Below are positions 8,841 through 15,229 of a DNA stretch of 64,000 nucleotides, piece by piece. Under the pieces are notes generated by a model, which saw only the letters and a list, made by a program, of their open reading frames with translations, was not told the DNA's origin and searched no databases. The position numbers and the translations under genes were made by a program. The stretch is from Pseudoxanthomonas sp. CF125 (GTDB taxonomy: Bacteria; Pseudomonadota; Gammaproteobacteria; Xanthomonadales; Xanthomonadaceae), in contig NZ_FNLD01000003.1 of NCBI RefSeq assembly GCF_900104085.1, positions 679,001-743,000 on the forward strand. The letters are read 5' to 3'. Each line of letters starts with the position of its first letter. The first letter of the stretch is position 1.

Positions 8841-9203
8841 TTAGCCGCCACCAGACGGATTCTGAGACAAGTCGTTTCCACTAAGGGCGTAAATATAGGC
8901 CTGAACAATAGCGCCGGTTTCGAGCTTTGCCGGGACCAGCATGCGCACATAACCTTCGCCCTCGAACTGATCGAGGTGCGCCCAATGCGCGCCCAGCTCA
9001 TCGGAGGAAAAGACGAATCCCGCGACCTCGTCGCCGCCTTCATCCACCACGATGCCCGGATAGCCGATCGCCGCTCCCCAGCCTTGTTGACGCAACGCGC
9101 CTCTGACTGTCGCCGCCTCCCAGGTGCCGGGAACCTCAGCCAGCACGTGCGCATTCGGGCGGCCGGGTGCGAGCGAACCGTAGACGAAGAGCCGGTCGGT
9201 CAT
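8841..9203 (-). CDS. Gamma-glutamylcyclotransferase (AIG2-like) family protein
   Basis: A 120-residue GGCT-fold protein. The N-terminal FVYGSLAPGRPNAHVL matches the YGSLxxG substrate loop. DEVAGFVFSSDELGAHWAHLDQFEGEGYVRMLV has the conserved LDxxEG.xY segment, whose Glu is the catalytic acid/base of the family. It may release 5-oxoproline from gamma-glutamyl compounds, but the substrate cannot be assigned. The start at 9203 places the YGSL motif about seven residues in, as usual. It follows an attC-like site and may be a cassette gene. Confidence 0.85.
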   Translation of the reverse strand: MTDRLFVYGSLAPGRPNAHVLAEVPGTWEAATVRGALRQQGWGAAIGYPGIVVDEGGDEVAGFVFSSDELGAHWAHLDQFEGEGYVRMLVPAKLETGAIVQAYIYALSGNDLSQNPSGGG

Positions 9204-9214
9204 TGAATTCTCAA

Positions 9215-9280
9215 GGCAGTCAGCGTCTGAGCCGAGCCGGCCCGCCAAGCGGGTCCGGCCGGAGCGGGCTGTCAGTTACC
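9215..9280 (-). other. attC-like recombination site (degenerate)
   Basis: Read on the minus strand, this begins at the TAA stop of the 138-residue exported protein and runs through a GC-rich hairpin (GGACCCGC-TTG-GCGGGCC) to CGGCTCAGACGCTGACT, 12 bp before the GGCT-like gene. The right end recalls attC (CTCAGGCGTTAGG) with two or three changes. Confidence 0.35.
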
Positions 9281-9688
9281 ACTGATGTTCACATTCCATT
9301 CTTGGATTGGTACGTCGGTGCGCTCTACGACAAGTTCTTCGATGATTTGCTGTTCCGTGGTCAGCTGCGTCTTCCCCTGCGCAACAGGTTCTATGGCGCT
9401 GTCCGCGTCGCGCCAGGCGACAGTGACCCGCAGATCCCATTGCTCGTTGGCGGAGTTGAAGCGTGGCCTGGACAAGCGCGCCCATAGAATGCGGCCGTCC
9501 TTTATCTTGGCGCGCAAAAGCGGGATCCGGTTCTTCTCGAACAAGCCGATGAACTGCAGCTCTTTGCCGGGCTTGATCCAATAAGTCTGCTCGACGACGA
9601 AGGGACTACGTGCCGCTGGATCCTGCTGCGCCGCGGCGCTCAACGGCGTCAATGCGAGGGCAAGTATGAGGGGGGCAATAAAACGCAT
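9272..9688 (-). CDS. Exported hypothetical protein, possible cassette gene
   Basis: A 138-residue product with a signal peptide (hydrophobic residues 4-19, cleavage near SAAAQ). The mature protein has YWIKPGKELQFIGLFEKNRIPLL, then an alternating pattern ending in TDVPIQEWNVNISGN. The spacing suggests a small alpha-beta fold such as the dimeric ferredoxin-like or NIPSNAP group, but I do not recognise the family. It is bounded on both sides by attC-like sites; the upstream one has an almost intact GCGTTAG end 20 bp before its start. Confidence 0.7.
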   Translation of the reverse strand: MRFIAPLILALALTPLSAAAQQDPAARSPFVVEQTYWIKPGKELQFIGLFEKNRIPLLRAKIKDGRILWARLSRPRFNSANEQWDLRVTVAWRDADSAIEPVAQGKTQLTTEQQIIEELVVERTDVPIQEWNVNISGN

Positions 9689-9707
9689 GCGACAGAATCT
9701 CCCTGGC

Positions 9708-9786
9708 GACTAACGCCTGAATTCAGCTGAATCGGAGTGGGATGGAAGCTGGATGCAACTGTAGCCGAAGGCGCGCGCTTAGGCAC
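9708..9786 (-). other. attC-like recombination site
   Basis: The minus strand reads GTGCCTAAG at one end and TGAATTCAGGCGTTAGTC at the other, 20 bp before the 138-residue gene. TTCAGGCGTTAG equals the right end of many attC sites, and GCCTAA matches the opposite core (RYYYAAC) except the last base. It is the best preserved site of the series. Confidence 0.5.
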
Positions 9787-9895
9787 GGCTTCATGACTTG
9801 AGTGAAGACCATCGCTGACCAAGGTGAACGCCGACGCGAAAACATACCGATATGCAGCAGCGGCGAGTCGGCGGGCGGTCAACGCCGGCCGGAAA

Positions 9896-11263
9896 TCAGT
9901 TCAACCCGCCCGGCGCGTGATCGGCCAGACCCGAAACGACTCCCAGCGAGGGATCCCCGAACACCAGTCTCACATTGGGGAATGCTTCCCGCACGACCGC
10001 TTGTACATACGGCGCGCGCGACATGCCCCCGGTCAGGAAAATGCTGTCGGGGCGCGCTTCCAGCTCGCTCGCCACTTCGCGCAGCAGCCGCTCCAGCCGG
10101 CTCAGGAAATCCACGCTGGCGATCCGCAGATCCTCGCGACTGGCGGCGACCGACAACGCCGCATCGATATAGTCCAGCGCATGCCGGCTGTCGTCGTGTT
10201 CGCTGAGCCGGATCTTCATGGACTCTACCGCGCGATACAAACGGGTGGTGCCGCCGTCGTGCTGCAAGGTCCGCAGCCGCGCGTTGTAAGGCGCGGGCAC
10301 TTCGCTGAAATCGCGTTTGTGGAAGGCGCGCTGGCGCGGCATGTCCTGGACCATGGCCGCATCCACGAAATGATGCGCAGGCACGCGGGTATCGCCGCGT
10401 CCGAACAGCGGCATGAAGTGGGCCATGCTCAGGGCCAGGTCCACGTCGGTGCCGCCATTGGGCAGGCCCCAGGCGCGATGGATCACCGGCGCCTGGCTGC
10501 CGCCGACCTGCGCATGGGCGATATCGGTGGTGCCGCCGCCGACATCCACCACCAGCGTGGAATGCCGGGTATCGCTGCCGGCGTGGTAATGCAGCGCGGC
10601 GGCGGCGGGTTCTTCCAGGAAGTCCACCGCCTCGAAACCGGCGATCTGCGCGGCTTCGGCCAGGATATCCAGCGCCTGCTCGCCGCCTGCAGGACCCAGC
10701 GAACTGCGGAAGCGCACCGGCCGCCCGATCGTGGCCAGGCGCACCTCGGTGCCCAGCTGCCCGCCGGCGGTCAGGCGAATGTGTTCAAGAATCTGCGCGG
10801 CGATGCCGGTGATGGTCTTCCGCGCGCGTGGCAGCAGGTCGTAGCCCAGCATCGATTTGGGCGACTGCACAAGGTGGCCGCTGCCTTCTTCCAGATAACG
10901 GTCGATGGCGTCCTCGCCGAACACCGCATCGTCCAGATCCGCCGCCGCGTCCTCGGCTTCCTGCCTTTGCGTCTCCAGCCATTGCCTGCGCACGATCTGC
11001 ACGGCATCGCGGTGCAGCTGCGCATCGCTGCGCGGAATCACGCCGCTACGGGTCTGCTCGACCTTGGCCGCCCGCACCAGCGCCGCGACTTCGCCTTCCA
11101 GCGCGGTGGTCAGACGGAAATCGGCGGGGTCCGGCAGGGCGGTGGGAAAGAACACCGCGGTACGGAACTGCGGCAGTCCGCCGAAGCGGATGTGCTCCAG
11201 CCGCCCGCCGATGCGCGCAGCCGCAGCCGAGTAGCTGGTGCCGAAGTCGATGCCGATTCTCAT
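9896..11263 (-). CDS. Hsp70-family ATPase (YegD-like)
   Basis: A 455-residue actin/Hsp70-fold ATPase. The phosphate-1 loop is GIDFGTSYS (residues 4-12), phosphate-2 is VVDVGGGTTDIAHA, and the adenosine motif is FLTGGMSRAPYV near the C-terminus. It is far shorter than DnaK (~640) and ends after the nucleotide-binding domain, as in YegD, so it lacks the standard substrate-binding domain. A chaperone role is inferred only from the fold. I chose the ATG at 11263 because GIDFGT must be close to the N-terminus. It sits among cassette-like genes but is larger than most, so it may be resident. Confidence 0.88.
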   Translation of the reverse strand: MRIGIDFGTSYSAAAARIGGRLEHIRFGGLPQFRTAVFFPTALPDPADFRLTTALEGEVAALVRAAKVEQTRSGVIPRSDAQLHRDAVQIVRRQWLETQRQEAEDAAADLDDAVFGEDAIDRYLEEGSGHLVQSPKSMLGYDLLPRARKTITGIAAQILEHIRLTAGGQLGTEVRLATIGRPVRFRSSLGPAGGEQALDILAEAAQIAGFEAVDFLEEPAAAALHYHAGSDTRHSTLVVDVGGGTTDIAHAQVGGSQAPVIHRAWGLPNGGTDVDLALSMAHFMPLFGRGDTRVPAHHFVDAAMVQDMPRQRAFHKRDFSEVPAPYNARLRTLQHDGGTTRLYRAVESMKIRLSEHDDSRHALDYIDAALSVAASREDLRIASVDFLSRLERLLREVASELEARPDSIFLTGGMSRAPYVQAVVREAFPNVRLVFGDPSLGVVSGLADHAPGGLN

Positions 11264-11364
11264 GGGGGATGGGGGCTTGCGCGCGGGGGCCGGCGATTCT
11301 ACGTGGTACGGACGTGCGCGTCGCGAGGAGATCGCAATCCAGGCATGAGCTTGGCCAAAGTCAG

Positions 11365-11431
11365 ACATCAACGCCCGAATCGGGCCGGCCCAATTCGCGG
11401 GGTCGGCTTGAAAGAATTCTGGACCTCAGTT
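11365..11431 (-). other. attC-like recombination site
   Basis: On the minus strand the site starts at the stop of the VOC remnant and contains GAATTCTTTCAAGCCGA, an internal stem, and CGGCCCGATTCGGGCGTTGATG. Both halves look like attC (TTCAAGCCG and TTCAGGCGTTAGG) with a few substitutions. It lies ~100 bp before the Hsp70-like gene. Confidence 0.5.
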
Positions 11432-11551
11432 CTGGGGAAGCAGCTGCGGATTCCACAAGACTTCCCACAAATGCTGGTCGGGATCCTGGAAGTATCCTGC
11501 GGAACCGCCCCAGGACGTGTCATGGGCGGGCCTGGCGATCACGGCACCGGC
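11426..11551 (-). pseudogene. Remnant of a VOC/glyoxalase-family gene, C-terminal part only
   Basis: The minus strand here encodes AGAVIARPAHDTSW, then GGSAGYFQDPDQHLWEVLWNP and a stop. That is a textbook C-terminal end of a VOC (glyoxalase/bleomycin-resistance fold) protein, with the DPDxHxWE metal-ligand segment. There is no N-terminal half. The fragment is in the same frame as the membrane protein upstream, separated from it only by a TAG codon at 11552-11554. I infer that a deletion joined two cassettes and removed the start of the VOC gene together with an attC site. Confidence 0.75.
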
Positions 11552-11944
11552 CTAAATGCCTTTGGCATCGGCGTAGGCGATCCAGGTGCCGCAGATCACA
11601 ACAAAATAGACCAGGCCAGCCACGGAAATTATCTGCGACCGCCGTAAATGCGGGTGAAGCTTGCCGACGTTTGCGGCGTACACCAGCAGACCGACCTTTC
11701 CGATGCTGCGGCCGTCAGCAGCGGCCTGCCCGGCAATCAGCATGAAGTGATGCATGGCGAATACGAAAGGAAACAGAACAATGGCCTGGATGGCTGCGAC
11801 CACCCACGCCACCGGAAACCCGAACGGTTCACGGCCGAAAGCTTTGGCAAGCACGGGCTGCACGTCCGGCGAGAATACGGTGCCGATGATCACGACGTAG
11901 ATCACTGCCGGAAGCGCATAGCTCATTCTGCTTTTATGAGGCAT
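11552..11944 (-). CDS. Small membrane protein, unknown function
   Basis: A 130-residue protein with about four hydrophobic segments (residues ~8-25, 45-65, 83-92 weak, 105-125). It is probably an inner-membrane protein. Between helices there are charged stretches such as NVGKLHPHLRRSQ. No family is recognised. It lies between an attC-like site (upstream) and a VOC fragment that continues in frame after its TAG stop, so its own C-terminus may have been altered by a deletion. A second ATG at 11926 is an alternative start. Confidence 0.6.
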   Translation of the reverse strand: MPHKSRMSYALPAVIYVVIIGTVFSPDVQPVLAKAFGREPFGFPVAWVVAAIQAIVLFPFVFAMHHFMLIAGQAAADGRSIGKVGLLVYAANVGKLHPHLRRSQIISVAGLVYFVVICGTWIAYADAKGI

Positions 11945-11963
11945 CGGTGATGATCCGTTTGGC

Positions 11964-12023
11964 GCATGCCGTCCAGGTTAAGCCGGTCAGCGAAGCGGCT
12001 CCGGTGCGAATGAATTCTCAGGT
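11964..12023 (-). other. attC-like recombination site
   Basis: On the minus strand the DUF4272 stop codon is part of CCTGAGAATTCATTCG. This is followed by GAGCCGCTTCGCTGACC (the central hairpin typical of attC) and CGGCTTAACCTGGACGGC. The layout GAATTCATTC, then CCGCTTCG, then CGGCTTAA matches Xanthomonas-type attC closely, but the outer GTT core is lost. Confidence 0.55.
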
Positions 12024-12776
12024 ATCCGTAGAGATATCATCCCACTCCTGCCCCATGTAGCCGATGAGCCAGTTAAGCGCATAGTGCCGCTCCATGGTTA
12101 CGCCGGGCTCCAAGCCAGCAGGTGCCGGCTTGCCATTGATCCGCGCATCCACCACGGCCCAGTGATACCGATAGATCAGATCGGCTTGCTCCGCCACCTC
12201 TTCGGTGGATCGCAGCTTGGCGTCCGCGATGAATTGCTCGGCGGATCGCTGCTGCATGATCTTGACGGCGCGGGGTACGTCGCAGATCGCCGTTGGTTTC
12301 GACAGATCTTCCACATAGCCCAGCGCCCACAATAGCGTCCATGCCGTCTCATAGCGCCACGAAAACTGGACACGGTCATGATCGGAAGGCGAGGCCTGAC
12401 TGATGAAGGCGGCCTCCTCGGGGCTGAAGTGCTCTTTCAACCGATAATCTTGGACGAGCTTGTCGACCGATGCTTGGTCCAGCCCTTCGCCTTTCACCGC
12501 CACGACGAGGAGCGCCATGGCTCGCCACGCCACTTCGTCCCTGGTGCGGCGTTTCATTTCGCCAACGTCTTCGATGGCAGGAAGCGATTCATTCACCGGT
12601 ACGCCTTCCAATGCGAGACGCGCATCGGAGCGATCTTTCCGCTTGAGAGCATCGGCAGTAGCGCTGGTTTCTATGGACTTGATCCGTTCTTTCCGTTCTT
12701 GAAGATCGGGCGTGTCTTGCGCGCACGTGCTGGTCGATAGGGCGGCAAAAACGACCAACAGGAAACGATATCGCAT
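12018..12776 (-). CDS. DUF4272 domain protein, exported
   Basis: A 252-residue protein. It begins with a lipoprotein-like signal sequence (MRYRFLLVVFAAL then STSTCAQ, with a possible lipid-modified Cys). The body has the DUF4272 pattern: RRTRDEVAWRAMALLVVAVKGEG, then FSWRYETAWTLLWALGYVEDL, and a C-terminal LIYRYHWAVVDARINGKPAPAGLEPGV then ERHYALNWL. The family is widespread but has no assigned role. The start at 12776 is fixed by the signal peptide and lies 4 bp from an attC-like site. The stop codon is embedded in another such site, consistent with a cassette gene. Confidence 0.8.
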   Translation of the reverse strand: MRYRFLLVVFAALSTSTCAQDTPDLQERKERIKSIETSATADALKRKDRSDARLALEGVPVNESLPAIEDVGEMKRRTRDEVAWRAMALLVVAVKGEGLDQASVDKLVQDYRLKEHFSPEEAAFISQASPSDHDRVQFSWRYETAWTLLWALGYVEDLSKPTAICDVPRAVKIMQQRSAEQFIADAKLRSTEEVAEQADLIYRYHWAVVDARINGKPAPAGLEPGVTMERHYALNWLIGYMGQEWDDISTDT

Positions 12777-12780
12777 AGGA

Positions 12781-12846
12781 GATACCTGGTGCTTGGACCA
12801 ACCCGCGCCGCTTGGGTGTGGATTCGGTTGGAATGAATTGTCAGGC
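12781..12846 (-). other. attC-like recombination site
   Basis: The minus strand reads GCCTGACAATTCATTCC from the GNAT stop codon, then AACCGA, an internal imperfect stem, and GGGTTGGTCCAAGCACCAGG, 4 bp before DUF4272. The first half matches attC almost exactly; the GTTAGGC core has become ACCAGGT. Confidence 0.5.
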
Positions 12847-13329
12847 TTGCCTTTCGAAGCGCTGCTCATTGACTTGTTTTCCCCACTGGTTGCCGGCTTG
12901 CTGGTGAACCAAGCGAAAGCCGTGCCTTTCATAGAGATGCCTGGCGGTCTCCAGGCCCTCGAACGTCCAAAGGTAAACGCGACGAAAGCCTTGCGCAATG
13001 CAATGCTCCATGGCGTGGTCCATCAGTCTGCTTCCGATTCCTGTCCCGCGCGTTTCCTCGGACGCGATGAACCAACGGAGGTGCGCACCTTCCTCTTCGG
13101 CATGGGATCCGTCTATGGCGATGGACCCCTGTATTTTGCTTCCTTCCACGGCCAGCCAGATTCCATCGCGTCCGGCCTGGTACTGCTCGAAGAAAGCGAC
13201 CAACCCGCCAGCAACCTTCGCTTCGAAGTGGAGGCCAAACCCGGCAAGGCGGCTGTAGTAGTCGGCGTGGAGTTCGGTAATGCGCCCGATGCAGCCGGGC
13301 ACATAGCCCTGTTGTACGGTGAGTGCCAT
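12841..13329 (-). CDS. GNAT-family N-acetyltransferase
   Basis: A 162-residue single GNAT domain. The acetyl-CoA binding motif A is ETRGTGIGSRLMDHAM (RxxGxG/A core), preceded by AHLRWFIAS on the beta-4 strand and followed by VYLWTFEGLETARHLYERHGFRLV, the motif B segment. The substrate cannot be predicted. It would act in the cytosol. It is flanked by attC-like sites on both sides (12781-12846 and 13344-13406), and GNAT genes are among the most frequent integron cassette contents. Confidence 0.9.
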   Translation of the reverse strand: MALTVQQGYVPGCIGRITELHADYYSRLAGFGLHFEAKVAGGLVAFFEQYQAGRDGIWLAVEGSKIQGSIAIDGSHAEEEGAHLRWFIASEETRGTGIGSRLMDHAMEHCIAQGFRRVYLWTFEGLETARHLYERHGFRLVHQQAGNQWGKQVNEQRFERQA

Positions 13330-13343
13330 TGACGCGCCTTTGC

Positions 13344-13406
13344 GAACCTAATACCTGGACCAAGCCGAGTCGAGAAAGTGGGTTCGATTTGAATGAGTTT
13401 CCAGAC
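13344..13406 (-). other. attC-like recombination site
   Basis: The minus strand has GTCTGGAAACTCATTCAAAT at one end and CTCGGCTTGGTCCAGGTATTAGG at the other, 15 bp before the GNAT start codon. TATTAGGT is one change from the GTTRRRY core. It starts 69 bp after the stop of the 363-residue orphan. Confidence 0.5.
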
Positions 13407-13474
13407 TTTACCTCATGCTGGCCCCAGCGGATCGAAGCACCGTAGCCCGCTGCTGGTCCACGCACGCCCGGCCT

Positions 13475-14566
13475 TCAAGAAAATGGAAGCGCTGCATTCT
13501 TGGGAACCAAGATGCTGCACCAATTGATTGCACTTGGGCTATACGCAATCAAGTCCGTGCCATTGAACAGCACATCAACCTTCTTCTCATCCAGGCCAGA
13601 TAGATTCTGCTTCGCCGTCAATGAAAGTTCAGCGAATGGCTCTCCGTTATCAAGGCCGCAAAGAACAATTCCATTTCCTTTTGGGGGTCTTATCGTACAG
13701 TACCGATTGCAGTGACTGACCTGCAATGCGCCATGCGGCAAGGACGCTACCGACTCGGCCTCGAATCGGCTGACTGACGGTGATTTTTCCTGCTCTTTGC
13801 CGGAAATAGAACCGACCCACGTTTTACTTGCAGGATCCTGCTTCATGCCATACCGGACGATGTAGTTGGCGTCACCTCTTGCAAGGGTCGCCTTTGTCGA
13901 CTCACCCCCTATCGTGCTGGCAATTATCTGGTCCCCGATGAGTGTCAATCCACGGAGGTTCAAGAAACTCACAAGCGGAGGAAGGTTTCCGCCCATTGCA
14001 TCCAGAACTATGCGGTCTTCCAGCTCGCAGAGAGGAGAGTTCCAGAAGAAGTCCTGTCCATCGAACTCAAGAATGGTGAAATACCGCCCTGCTCGTACAA
14101 AACCAGAATCAGAGAGTTTCACCAAAAATTGACTGCCGGACAGTTGGTGAACAGAAAGGATGGCCGGCATCCGTCGAAACTTGCCGTCGTTTTCTATGAT
14201 CTTTGGATCATCCCGCAATATCTCCCAATTGCGGACTCGATACGTTTTCTTGCGGTCAGAACGCCAATCGGGCCAGTGGTGGCAAAGATGGGAATCGAAG
14301 ATCGCCACGCCGGTTGTCCAGCGAAACCATGGGTAGCTGTAAGTCGGATGCTTCAACTCGGCGACGAGGGGAGCGTCGATTATTCTTCCGCTTCGATCAA
14401 GCGTGTATATGGCCGGCGAATACGGATCCGCCGTGAGCTGACCGATCACGGCAAGTCTCTCGCTGTCGAAGTGCTCGATCCGCATCGTGCTGATCAGTCC
14501 ATTGTCCAGTGAGATCGTCTTTACTATCTCTGTTCTTAGAGTGATGCGGCTGGTCACGGTATCCAT
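13475..14566 (-). CDS. Orphan protein of unknown function, possible cassette gene
   Basis: A 363-residue protein with no family I recognise. It has no signal peptide or membrane segment. It is rich in short beta-strand-like stretches separated by turns (for example YTLDRSGRIIDAP, FTILEFDGQDFFW, LTLIGDQIIAST, GIVLCGLDNGEP), compatible with a beta-propeller or beta-sandwich. Codon use is clearly more AT-rich than in its neighbours, a sign of recent acquisition. Its ATG overlaps the TAA of a short upstream frame (TAATG), so translation may be coupled. An attC-like site follows it. Confidence 0.65.
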   Translation of the reverse strand: MDTVTSRITLRTEIVKTISLDNGLISTMRIEHFDSERLAVIGQLTADPYSPAIYTLDRSGRIIDAPLVAELKHPTYSYPWFRWTTGVAIFDSHLCHHWPDWRSDRKKTYRVRNWEILRDDPKIIENDGKFRRMPAILSVHQLSGSQFLVKLSDSGFVRAGRYFTILEFDGQDFFWNSPLCELEDRIVLDAMGGNLPPLVSFLNLRGLTLIGDQIIASTIGGESTKATLARGDANYIVRYGMKQDPASKTWVGSISGKEQEKSPSVSRFEAESVASLPHGALQVSHCNRYCTIRPPKGNGIVLCGLDNGEPFAELSLTAKQNLSGLDEKKVDVLFNGTDLIAYSPSAINWCSILVPKNAALPFS

Positions 14567-14652
14567 TAGGCAGCTCCGTCCGCGAACGACTCATCCGCGA
14601 GTGAGTGATCAAGAACCGCCAGTCCAGAAGTTGGAATTTGGAGAATGTGCAT
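14566..14652 (-). CDS. Possible 28-residue leader ORF coupled to the orphan gene
   Basis: A short frame starting ATG at 14652 and ending in a TAA that shares one base with the ATG of the 363-residue gene. The peptide has a hydrophobic first half and an acidic second half (DHSLADESFADGAA). No homology is recognised. It might be a leader or the remains of a longer gene. Coding is supported only by the overlap. Confidence 0.25.
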   Translation of the reverse strand: MHILQIPTSGLAVLDHSLADESFADGAA

Positions 14653-14666
14653 GGTGAATTCTTGGA

Positions 14667-14738
14667 AGACGCTGCGCTCTACCCGGGTTGCGCGGCCGCG
14701 CTCTACTCGGGCTACGTCACTTGGATGAACCGTCAGGC
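14667..14738 (-). other. Possible attC-like left end fused to a GTAGCCCGG-type repeat
   Basis: From the DUF2798 stop the minus strand reads GCCTGACGGTTCATCCAAG, close to the GCCTGACAATTCATTC ends of the other sites. It is followed by GTAGCCCGAGTAGAGCGC and CCCGGGTAGAGCGCAGCG, a degenerate interspersed repeat. No convincing right end is seen. Confidence 0.3.
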
Positions 14739-15002
14739 TGCTCGCACGAGTGCCGCTGTAGCCTTGCGCACCACAGGCAACACTAACAGCAGCACGGGAA
14801 ATGCGATAAGCCACGACACCCCCCAAGCGCCGAGCCACTTGGATGTGAACTGAGGTGACATGCCAATGCCTTTGAAGGTGCTGATAAGGGACACGATGCA
14901 TGTCATGAGGATAGACAGCATCAAAGGCATGACCAACGAGCCGTAGCGCGCGGGAAGCTTGGGAATACCGAAGACGATGGTGGATTTGTTTGAAGCGTTC
15001 AT
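14733..15002 (-). CDS. DUF2798 membrane protein
   Basis: An 89-residue protein that fits the DUF2798 family: KLPARYGSLVMPLMLSILMTCIVSLISTFKGIG, then WLGAWGVSWLIAFPVLLLVLPVVRKATAALV. It has two membrane segments. Function is unknown. I chose the ATG at 15002, just before the conserved LPARY block; a longer reading adds eight residues. A possible attC-like end follows the stop. Confidence 0.85.
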   Translation of the reverse strand: MNASNKSTIVFGIPKLPARYGSLVMPLMLSILMTCIVSLISTFKGIGMSPQFTSKWLGAWGVSWLIAFPVLLLVLPVVRKATAALVRAA

Positions 15003-15229
15003 GAGCGATCTCCTAGATCCGGTCAAGCAAAGGCGCCTTTCGCCCGCGAACAGGCAAACAGCCCCGGCAATGCCGGAGATGAGGGGCGCGTTGGTTGACG
15101 TGAACGCTTACGGCCGACCGCGAGAACCACGATGACGGAGGGCATGTTAGAAACTGCGGCGCGTCTTGGCAAGAGCAGCCTAACCCCCGGCTATCAGAAT
15201 TTTCATGCAATCCTGCTCGCGCTTTCGTT

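Follow-up and report, generated by a model that had tools for sequence, protein, structure and literature searches.

We analysed a 64,000-nucleotide window from Pseudoxanthomonas sp. CF125 that corresponds to positions 679001-743000 of contig C3, in a 4.2 Mb genome of 6 contigs. Between GH5/gltD and mgsA the window carries a run of genes, all on the minus strand, with traces of integron recombination sites (attC) in the gaps between them. A first-pass annotation had described the run as an eroded integron cassette array without an integrase. Read from GH5/gltD toward mgsA, the order is DUF2798, ORF13478, GNAT, DUF4272, ORF11555, a VOC remnant, an HSP70-like gene, ORF9275, and GGCT (ORF, open reading frame). 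The mgsA-type protein of the window is 96% identical to its counterpart in Pseudoxanthomonas sacheonensis DSM 19373.

The first cassette gene (14733..15002) encodes an 89-aa DUF2798 protein (Pfam PF11391, E 2.6e-19). Past the GH5 stop codon, a GGGGGTTAGGC-like stretch on the same strand (15170..15182) is a candidate upstream border of this block, by sequence only. Following DUF2798 are ORF13478 (13475..14566; 363 aa, no Pfam match), which occurs in 2 of 38 genus genomes; a GNAT acetyltransferase gene (12841..13329; 162 aa, PF00583, E 3.2e-16); a DUF4272 gene (12018..12776; 252 aa, PF14094, E 1.2e-71); and ORF11555 (11552..11944; 130 aa, no Pfam match). Fused behind ORF11555 is the C-terminal part of a VOC/glyoxalase gene, a remnant of about 41 codons (11426..11551; PF00903, E 0.0033, 18.3 bits, short of the 20.6-bit cut-off) that is truncated identically in P. 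sacheonensis. Beyond the HSP70-like gene (9896..11263; 455 aa, PF00012) lie ORF9275 (9272..9688; 138 aa, no Pfam match) and a gene for a gamma-glutamylcyclotransferase-like protein, GGCT (8841..9203; 120 aa, PF06094, E 4.3e-16). The first-pass annotation had taken the gene contents as cassettes, which stands for the genes called cassette genes here; the VOC gene is a remnant, and the HSP70-like gene in the middle is resident.

Rfam at gathering thresholds gave no match in the window, and we therefore built our own covariance model, R1. It rests on 22 of the intact, xanthomonad-type attC sites that this genome carries outside the window, with the two-arm structure drawn by hand. In the inner arm six pairs show changes at both positions, in the outer arm no pair does, and the 22 sites themselves score 50-94 bits. 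The left-end word, AATTCATTCAAGCCG, has 35 genome matches at two or fewer mismatches, and the right-end word has 24; the reversed control gave 0 for each. Applied to the whole window with filters off, in place of attc_4.cm, R1 returned 13 matches at E<=10. Six are intergenic and on the minus strand, between 9218 and 13406, and stand above the window background, the other seven all scoring 11.3 bits or less. The six are A2 (13346..13406, decayed, 23.8 bits), A3 (12784..12846, decayed, 28.9 bits, E 5.6e-6), A4 (11964..12023, strongly decayed, 16.2 bits, E 0.047), A5 (11366..11425, decayed, 26.5 bits), A6 (9708..9830, with a long loop, 19.9 bits; the R1 core is 9708-9766 and the 5' limit is estimated), and A7 (9218..9277, decayed, 20.0 bits). 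Seven attC-like gaps had originally been proposed. The seventh, A1 (14723..14738, minus strand), is unconfirmed: only the left end of what may be another attC is present, with three mismatches to the left-end word and no R1 signal. The gap at 8.8 kb likewise gave no R1 call.

The sites stand behind five gene ends plus the VOC remnant or the resident gene, so that short genes of one orientation are each followed by an attC, and no confirmed R1 site was identified behind DUF2798 or GGCT. A3, A4, and A7 share bases with the stop codon of the gene before them, and A5 begins one base past the stop of the VOC remnant; A2 lies 68 bp from the upstream stop and A6 65 bp (129 bp counting the R1 core only). 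The next start codon is 7-19 bp away for five of the six sites and 102 bp away for A5. A6 keeps TTCAGGCGTTAG, as had been noticed before, and its loop and right end match an attC at C5:455.8k over 75 nt (78.7% identity, E 4.7e-10). This match, at the level of sequence, ties A6 directly to the integron-like array of the genome itself.

Across the genome R1 gave at least 44 matches at E<=10, of which one repeats a palindromic site in reverse. This leaves at least 43 sites at 15 places as grouped by hand, six of them in this 4.2 kb; these are minimum numbers, because scoring covered 150 of the 1472 candidates from the first look. Genome-wide E-values of the six window sites are 3.7e-4, 0.002, 0.014, 0.21, 0.22, and 3.0, and the three weakest were accepted because of their clustering, common strand, and intergenic position.

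The window sites are decayed relative to the model sites. Standard base pairs amount to 91.4% in the 22 model sites versus 70.3% in the six, whose alignment was fitted to the model; slid versions of that alignment give 22-45%, far below this figure. GTT is retained in two of the six (A5 and A6) versus 17 of the 22. Four sites thus lack R'' and R' boxes that include GTT, and for this reason we class the array as degenerate rather than functional.

For comparison we used the mgsA loci of relatives (the best 80 of 473, several of them incomplete), over which R1 was searched across 1.49 Mb in all. By tblastn, array genes were matched in the P. sacheonensis locus (L016) only, which has the same array between gltD and mgsA, and not found in the other 79; the array is therefore not a piece of housekeeping synteny. 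GH5 or gltD adjoins mgsA in many relatives. The first-pass annotation had named two grounds for giving up its claim, namely no covariance signal and conserved housekeeping synteny, and both fail. In the L016 array R1 scores 51.0, 30.3, 23.1, and 22.6 bits, the highest at the counterpart of A3. In the other 79 loci it returned three lone matches at E<=10 and no cluster in any: L052:4798-4853 on the minus strand (36.1 bits, a Rhodanobacter metagenome-assembled genome), L069:12196-12255 on the plus strand (22.4 bits, Lysobacter), and L074 (14.7 bits). The first two are possible isolated attC sites.

Along the array the alignment of the window with L016 holds at 92-93% and fails in two places. DUF2798 is absent from L016, which has other ORFs there, and DUF4272 is replaced by a 107-aa DUF2007-like ORF (Pfam E 0.0041, below cut-off), the alignment breaking inside A3 and A4. 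Gene content therefore varies between close relatives at attC borders. The window DUF4272 is the sole PF14094 match among 38 genus genomes, and the idea of a donor within the genus was dropped as none was identified in the 37 others. Some defects are common to the two species: A2 and A5 look alike in them, as does the VOC truncation. A3 is better kept in L016. Because of the common defects, some of the decay predates the split from P. sacheonensis.

The HSP70-like gene is resident and not a cassette, and the array consists of two cassette blocks. The gene has matches at E<=1e-30 in 11 of 38 genus genomes. Homologues of 79-86% identity in four genus genomes (L116-L119) lie beside benE in all four and in one also beside gltD; R1 identified no site there at E<=5, in flanks of about 1.5 kb, or 0.3 kb for one flank of L116. 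Its GC content at third codon positions (GC3) is 0.820, like that of mgsA (0.822), GH5 (0.821), and gltD (0.846), versus 0.587-0.717 for the other array genes (0.587 for ORF13478 and 0.708 for DUF2798). A single unbroken array that includes this gene was considered and dropped on the benE context and GC3.

No integron-integrase gene (intI) is near the array. A TIGR02249 search of the genome identified none above the curated cut-off, in the window or elsewhere. On C3 there is no match within about 500 kb of the array, and the sole matches on that contig, at 177.6-178.3 kb in a 398-aa frame, are far below the cut-off. N-terminal pieces of intI remain on another contig, at C5:453916 (81.5 bits, residues 2-84) and C5:78077 (61.2 bits, residues 2-61), both beside attC arrays. 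This agrees with the absence of an integrase in the first-pass description. An intI above the cut-off is present in 26 of 38 genus genomes, and P. sacheonensis (G010) encodes a full-length one (335 aa, 466 bits, L098:10517-11524) beside a gene that we take to be YcaQ-like. The flank of this intI and the C5:78 kb locus (L010:1-2495) align over 2,025 bp at 94.6%; past the end of that alignment, the genome here has lost about 750 bp of intI. Because the two species have site defects in common and a full-length intI persists in P. sacheonensis, the decay of the sites probably preceded the loss of intI in this lineage.

The cassette genes are intact. The ratio of nonsynonymous to synonymous substitution rates (dN/dS) between the window and L016 is 0.396 for ORF13478, 0.063 for GNAT, 0.291 for ORF11555, 0.135 for ORF9275, and 0.321 for GGCT, with no stops; resident genes give 0.066-0.113, the HSP70-like gene (0.070) among them. 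The GNAT gene (12841-13329 versus L016:5811-6299) has a dS of 0.385, versus 0.10-0.21 for all other genes compared, which hints that this cassette may have been exchanged separately.

We are confident that the locus belongs to the xanthomonad integron family as a degenerate CALIN (cluster of attC sites lacking an integron-integrase), its two blocks flanking the resident HSP70-like gene between GH5/gltD and mgsA. The array itself is evident from the six sites, their homology to intact attC of the same genome, the lack of an intI above cut-off, and the full-length intI in P. sacheonensis. It is also evident from decay both common and private to the two species, from cassette differences with breaks inside attC, and from intact genes with dN/dS below 0.4. 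The observation stands and was correctly named in essence; the kind of genomic relic is already known, and this member is strongly decayed. An IntI encoded elsewhere in the chromosome would have inserted the cassettes here, in an ancestor common with P. sacheonensis. The attC sites would then have drifted and eroded, and are presumably inactive now, while selection probably retained the genes. By now the array is probably frozen, passed on as ordinary genes are, and its genes may be transcribed with their surroundings or from their own promoters. It would illustrate how cassettes become ordinary chromosomal genes, the sites eroding and the genes staying intact. The full-length intI in P. sacheonensis makes it testable whether the sites decayed before the integrase was lost. 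Thresholds tuned to intact sites could overlook remains as faint as these.

Several observations weigh against this reading. The three weakest sites are individually non-significant genome-wide, and the pairing of the six is barely above that of shuffled versions (66.2%), 30 of 500 of which reach the same value. R1 calls only four of the six sites in L016, where the counterparts of A4 and A6 are visible by alignment only. The lone matches in the Rhodanobacter and Lysobacter relatives outscore several window sites, and a lone match of about 20 bits therefore proves little. The dN/dS values cover the five cassette genes with an L016 counterpart, which DUF4272 and DUF2798 lack. With a resident gene in the middle, two insertions, or one insertion and a rearrangement, are needed. 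An nhmmer profile identified no attI or cassette promoter (Pc) at the array (best window E-values 2.1, 3.9, and 7.9; none in L016 at E<=10), so the locus lacks the intI with attI and Pc of a complete integron. A possible diverged Pc-attI spotted by eye at L016:2948-3010 is not claimed, as the same profile did not find it. Lastly, ordinary homologous recombination could also explain the exchange of cassettes between the two species.

The last point leads to the alternative that survives best. The cassette-bearing segment may have arrived whole from the integron of another strain, by homologous or illegitimate recombination, without IntI ever acting at the locus. The missing attI and Pc would then be expected, the VOC truncation and the resident gene in mid-array show that rearrangement has occurred, and the high dS of GNAT fits a separate history. 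Two separate blocks, however, need two events, and the window and L016 differ by breaks that lie inside attC, though homologous recombination at repeats could produce the same pattern. We consider arrival of the whole segment unlikely, though still a serious competitor.

It is very improbable that the sites are undecayed members of a divergent attC family used by another integrase. The right halves of A2 and A3 do both carry TTGGTCCA, not seen in the 22 model sites, and some defects are common to P. sacheonensis. Against this, the six sites differ among themselves in the R' box, their GTT retention and standard pairing fall well short of those of the model sites, and the genome has no other intI above the cut-off. 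Weakest of all, and hardly credible, is the idea of chance palindromes or another intergenic repeat merely resembling attC: the individual scores are low, lone matches of similar strength occur elsewhere, and REP-like (repetitive extragenic palindromic) sequences are present nearby, for example at 8.8 kb, but six same-strand matches fall at gene ends within 4.2 kb with nothing else in 64 kb above 11.3 bits, the A6 loop is homologous to a local attC, and in P. sacheonensis one site is better kept and cassettes are exchanged at the sites.

The degenerate CALIN reading places the locus in a defined class. CALINs, a class used by IntegronFinder, are clustered attC sites lacking an integron-integrase (PMC9024848). 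The locus resembles them in having at least two clustered attC (six R1 sites here), short genes in the same direction, and no integrase nearby. It differs in that its sites are far more decayed than the other sites of the genome and in that a resident gene splits the cluster. In Xanthomonas, many strains have lost intI or keep only a truncated copy, arrays are stable, and CALINs occur at loci other than ilvD, and X. cucurbitae retains two former cassette genes without recognizable attC (PMC12444791). The inactivation of intI, the stable array, and the position off ilvD are alike. Here, by contrast, the genome is Pseudoxanthomonas-like, the eroding attC are still visible between the genes, and the intI of P. 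sacheonensis is placed beside the YcaQ-like gene and not evidently near ilvD. In the accessible parts of the literature on Pseudoxanthomonas integrons, attC, and CALINs we identified no description of this locus, of which a print record may still exist.

The genome also holds dispersed Pc-attI-like modules, which are more unusual than the window array itself. A Pc-attI-like segment, present also beside the P. sacheonensis intI, was matched in 6 of 38 genus genomes, with nine copies here, six in P. sacheonensis, and four in another genome (G005). The nine copies (L009-L014, L107) lie at C5:32.6k, 78.4k, 390.7k, 393.6k, 402.5k, 406.9k, 454.3k, and 814.4k and at C4:201.2k. An R1 site occurs within about 550 bp after eight of the nine, which thus head attC arrays, the exception being C5:402.5k, and three of the nine carry intI 5' sequence. 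As a tentative reading, less likely than not, the integron of this lineage was dispersed as units led by Pc-attI, most of those here at the head of small arrays of their own, for all of which a single integrase acted in trans. On that view the array in the window is an old, eroded product of this integrase, in which attC erosion began while the integrase was present and selection kept the cassette genes. If confirmed, the dispersed modules would give a genome an extra means of operating several arrays through a single integrase.

Cassettes can reportedly also be inserted off target, at attG-type sites, as Loot and colleagues are said to have described in 2024. Such insertion would explain cassettes distant from attI, and 7 of the 15 listed attC places here hold a single site. 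It is a candidate only; the border at the mgsA end lies near TTAGACT, which is uninformative on mechanism because TAGACT occurs upstream of mgsA in 30 of the 80 relatives. For the same reason the TTAGAC on the mgsA side was dropped as part of an eighth attC.

The orientation of the 43 listed attC sites is uniform on each contig (C5, 25 of 25 plus; C4, 2 of 2 plus; C6, 8 of 8 minus; C3, 8 of 8 minus), and may reflect the direction of replication, for which GC skew is too weak a guide. The sole promoter-like site, at 15172-15144, is within chance expectation. ORF13478 had no match at E<=0.1 among PDB sequences. A defence function was considered and set aside, a PADLOC search giving a single weak match, to the GNAT protein. 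In a plasmid search 52 records match 3% of the array or similar, and the ten listed are Rhizobium matches of the DUF4272 type.

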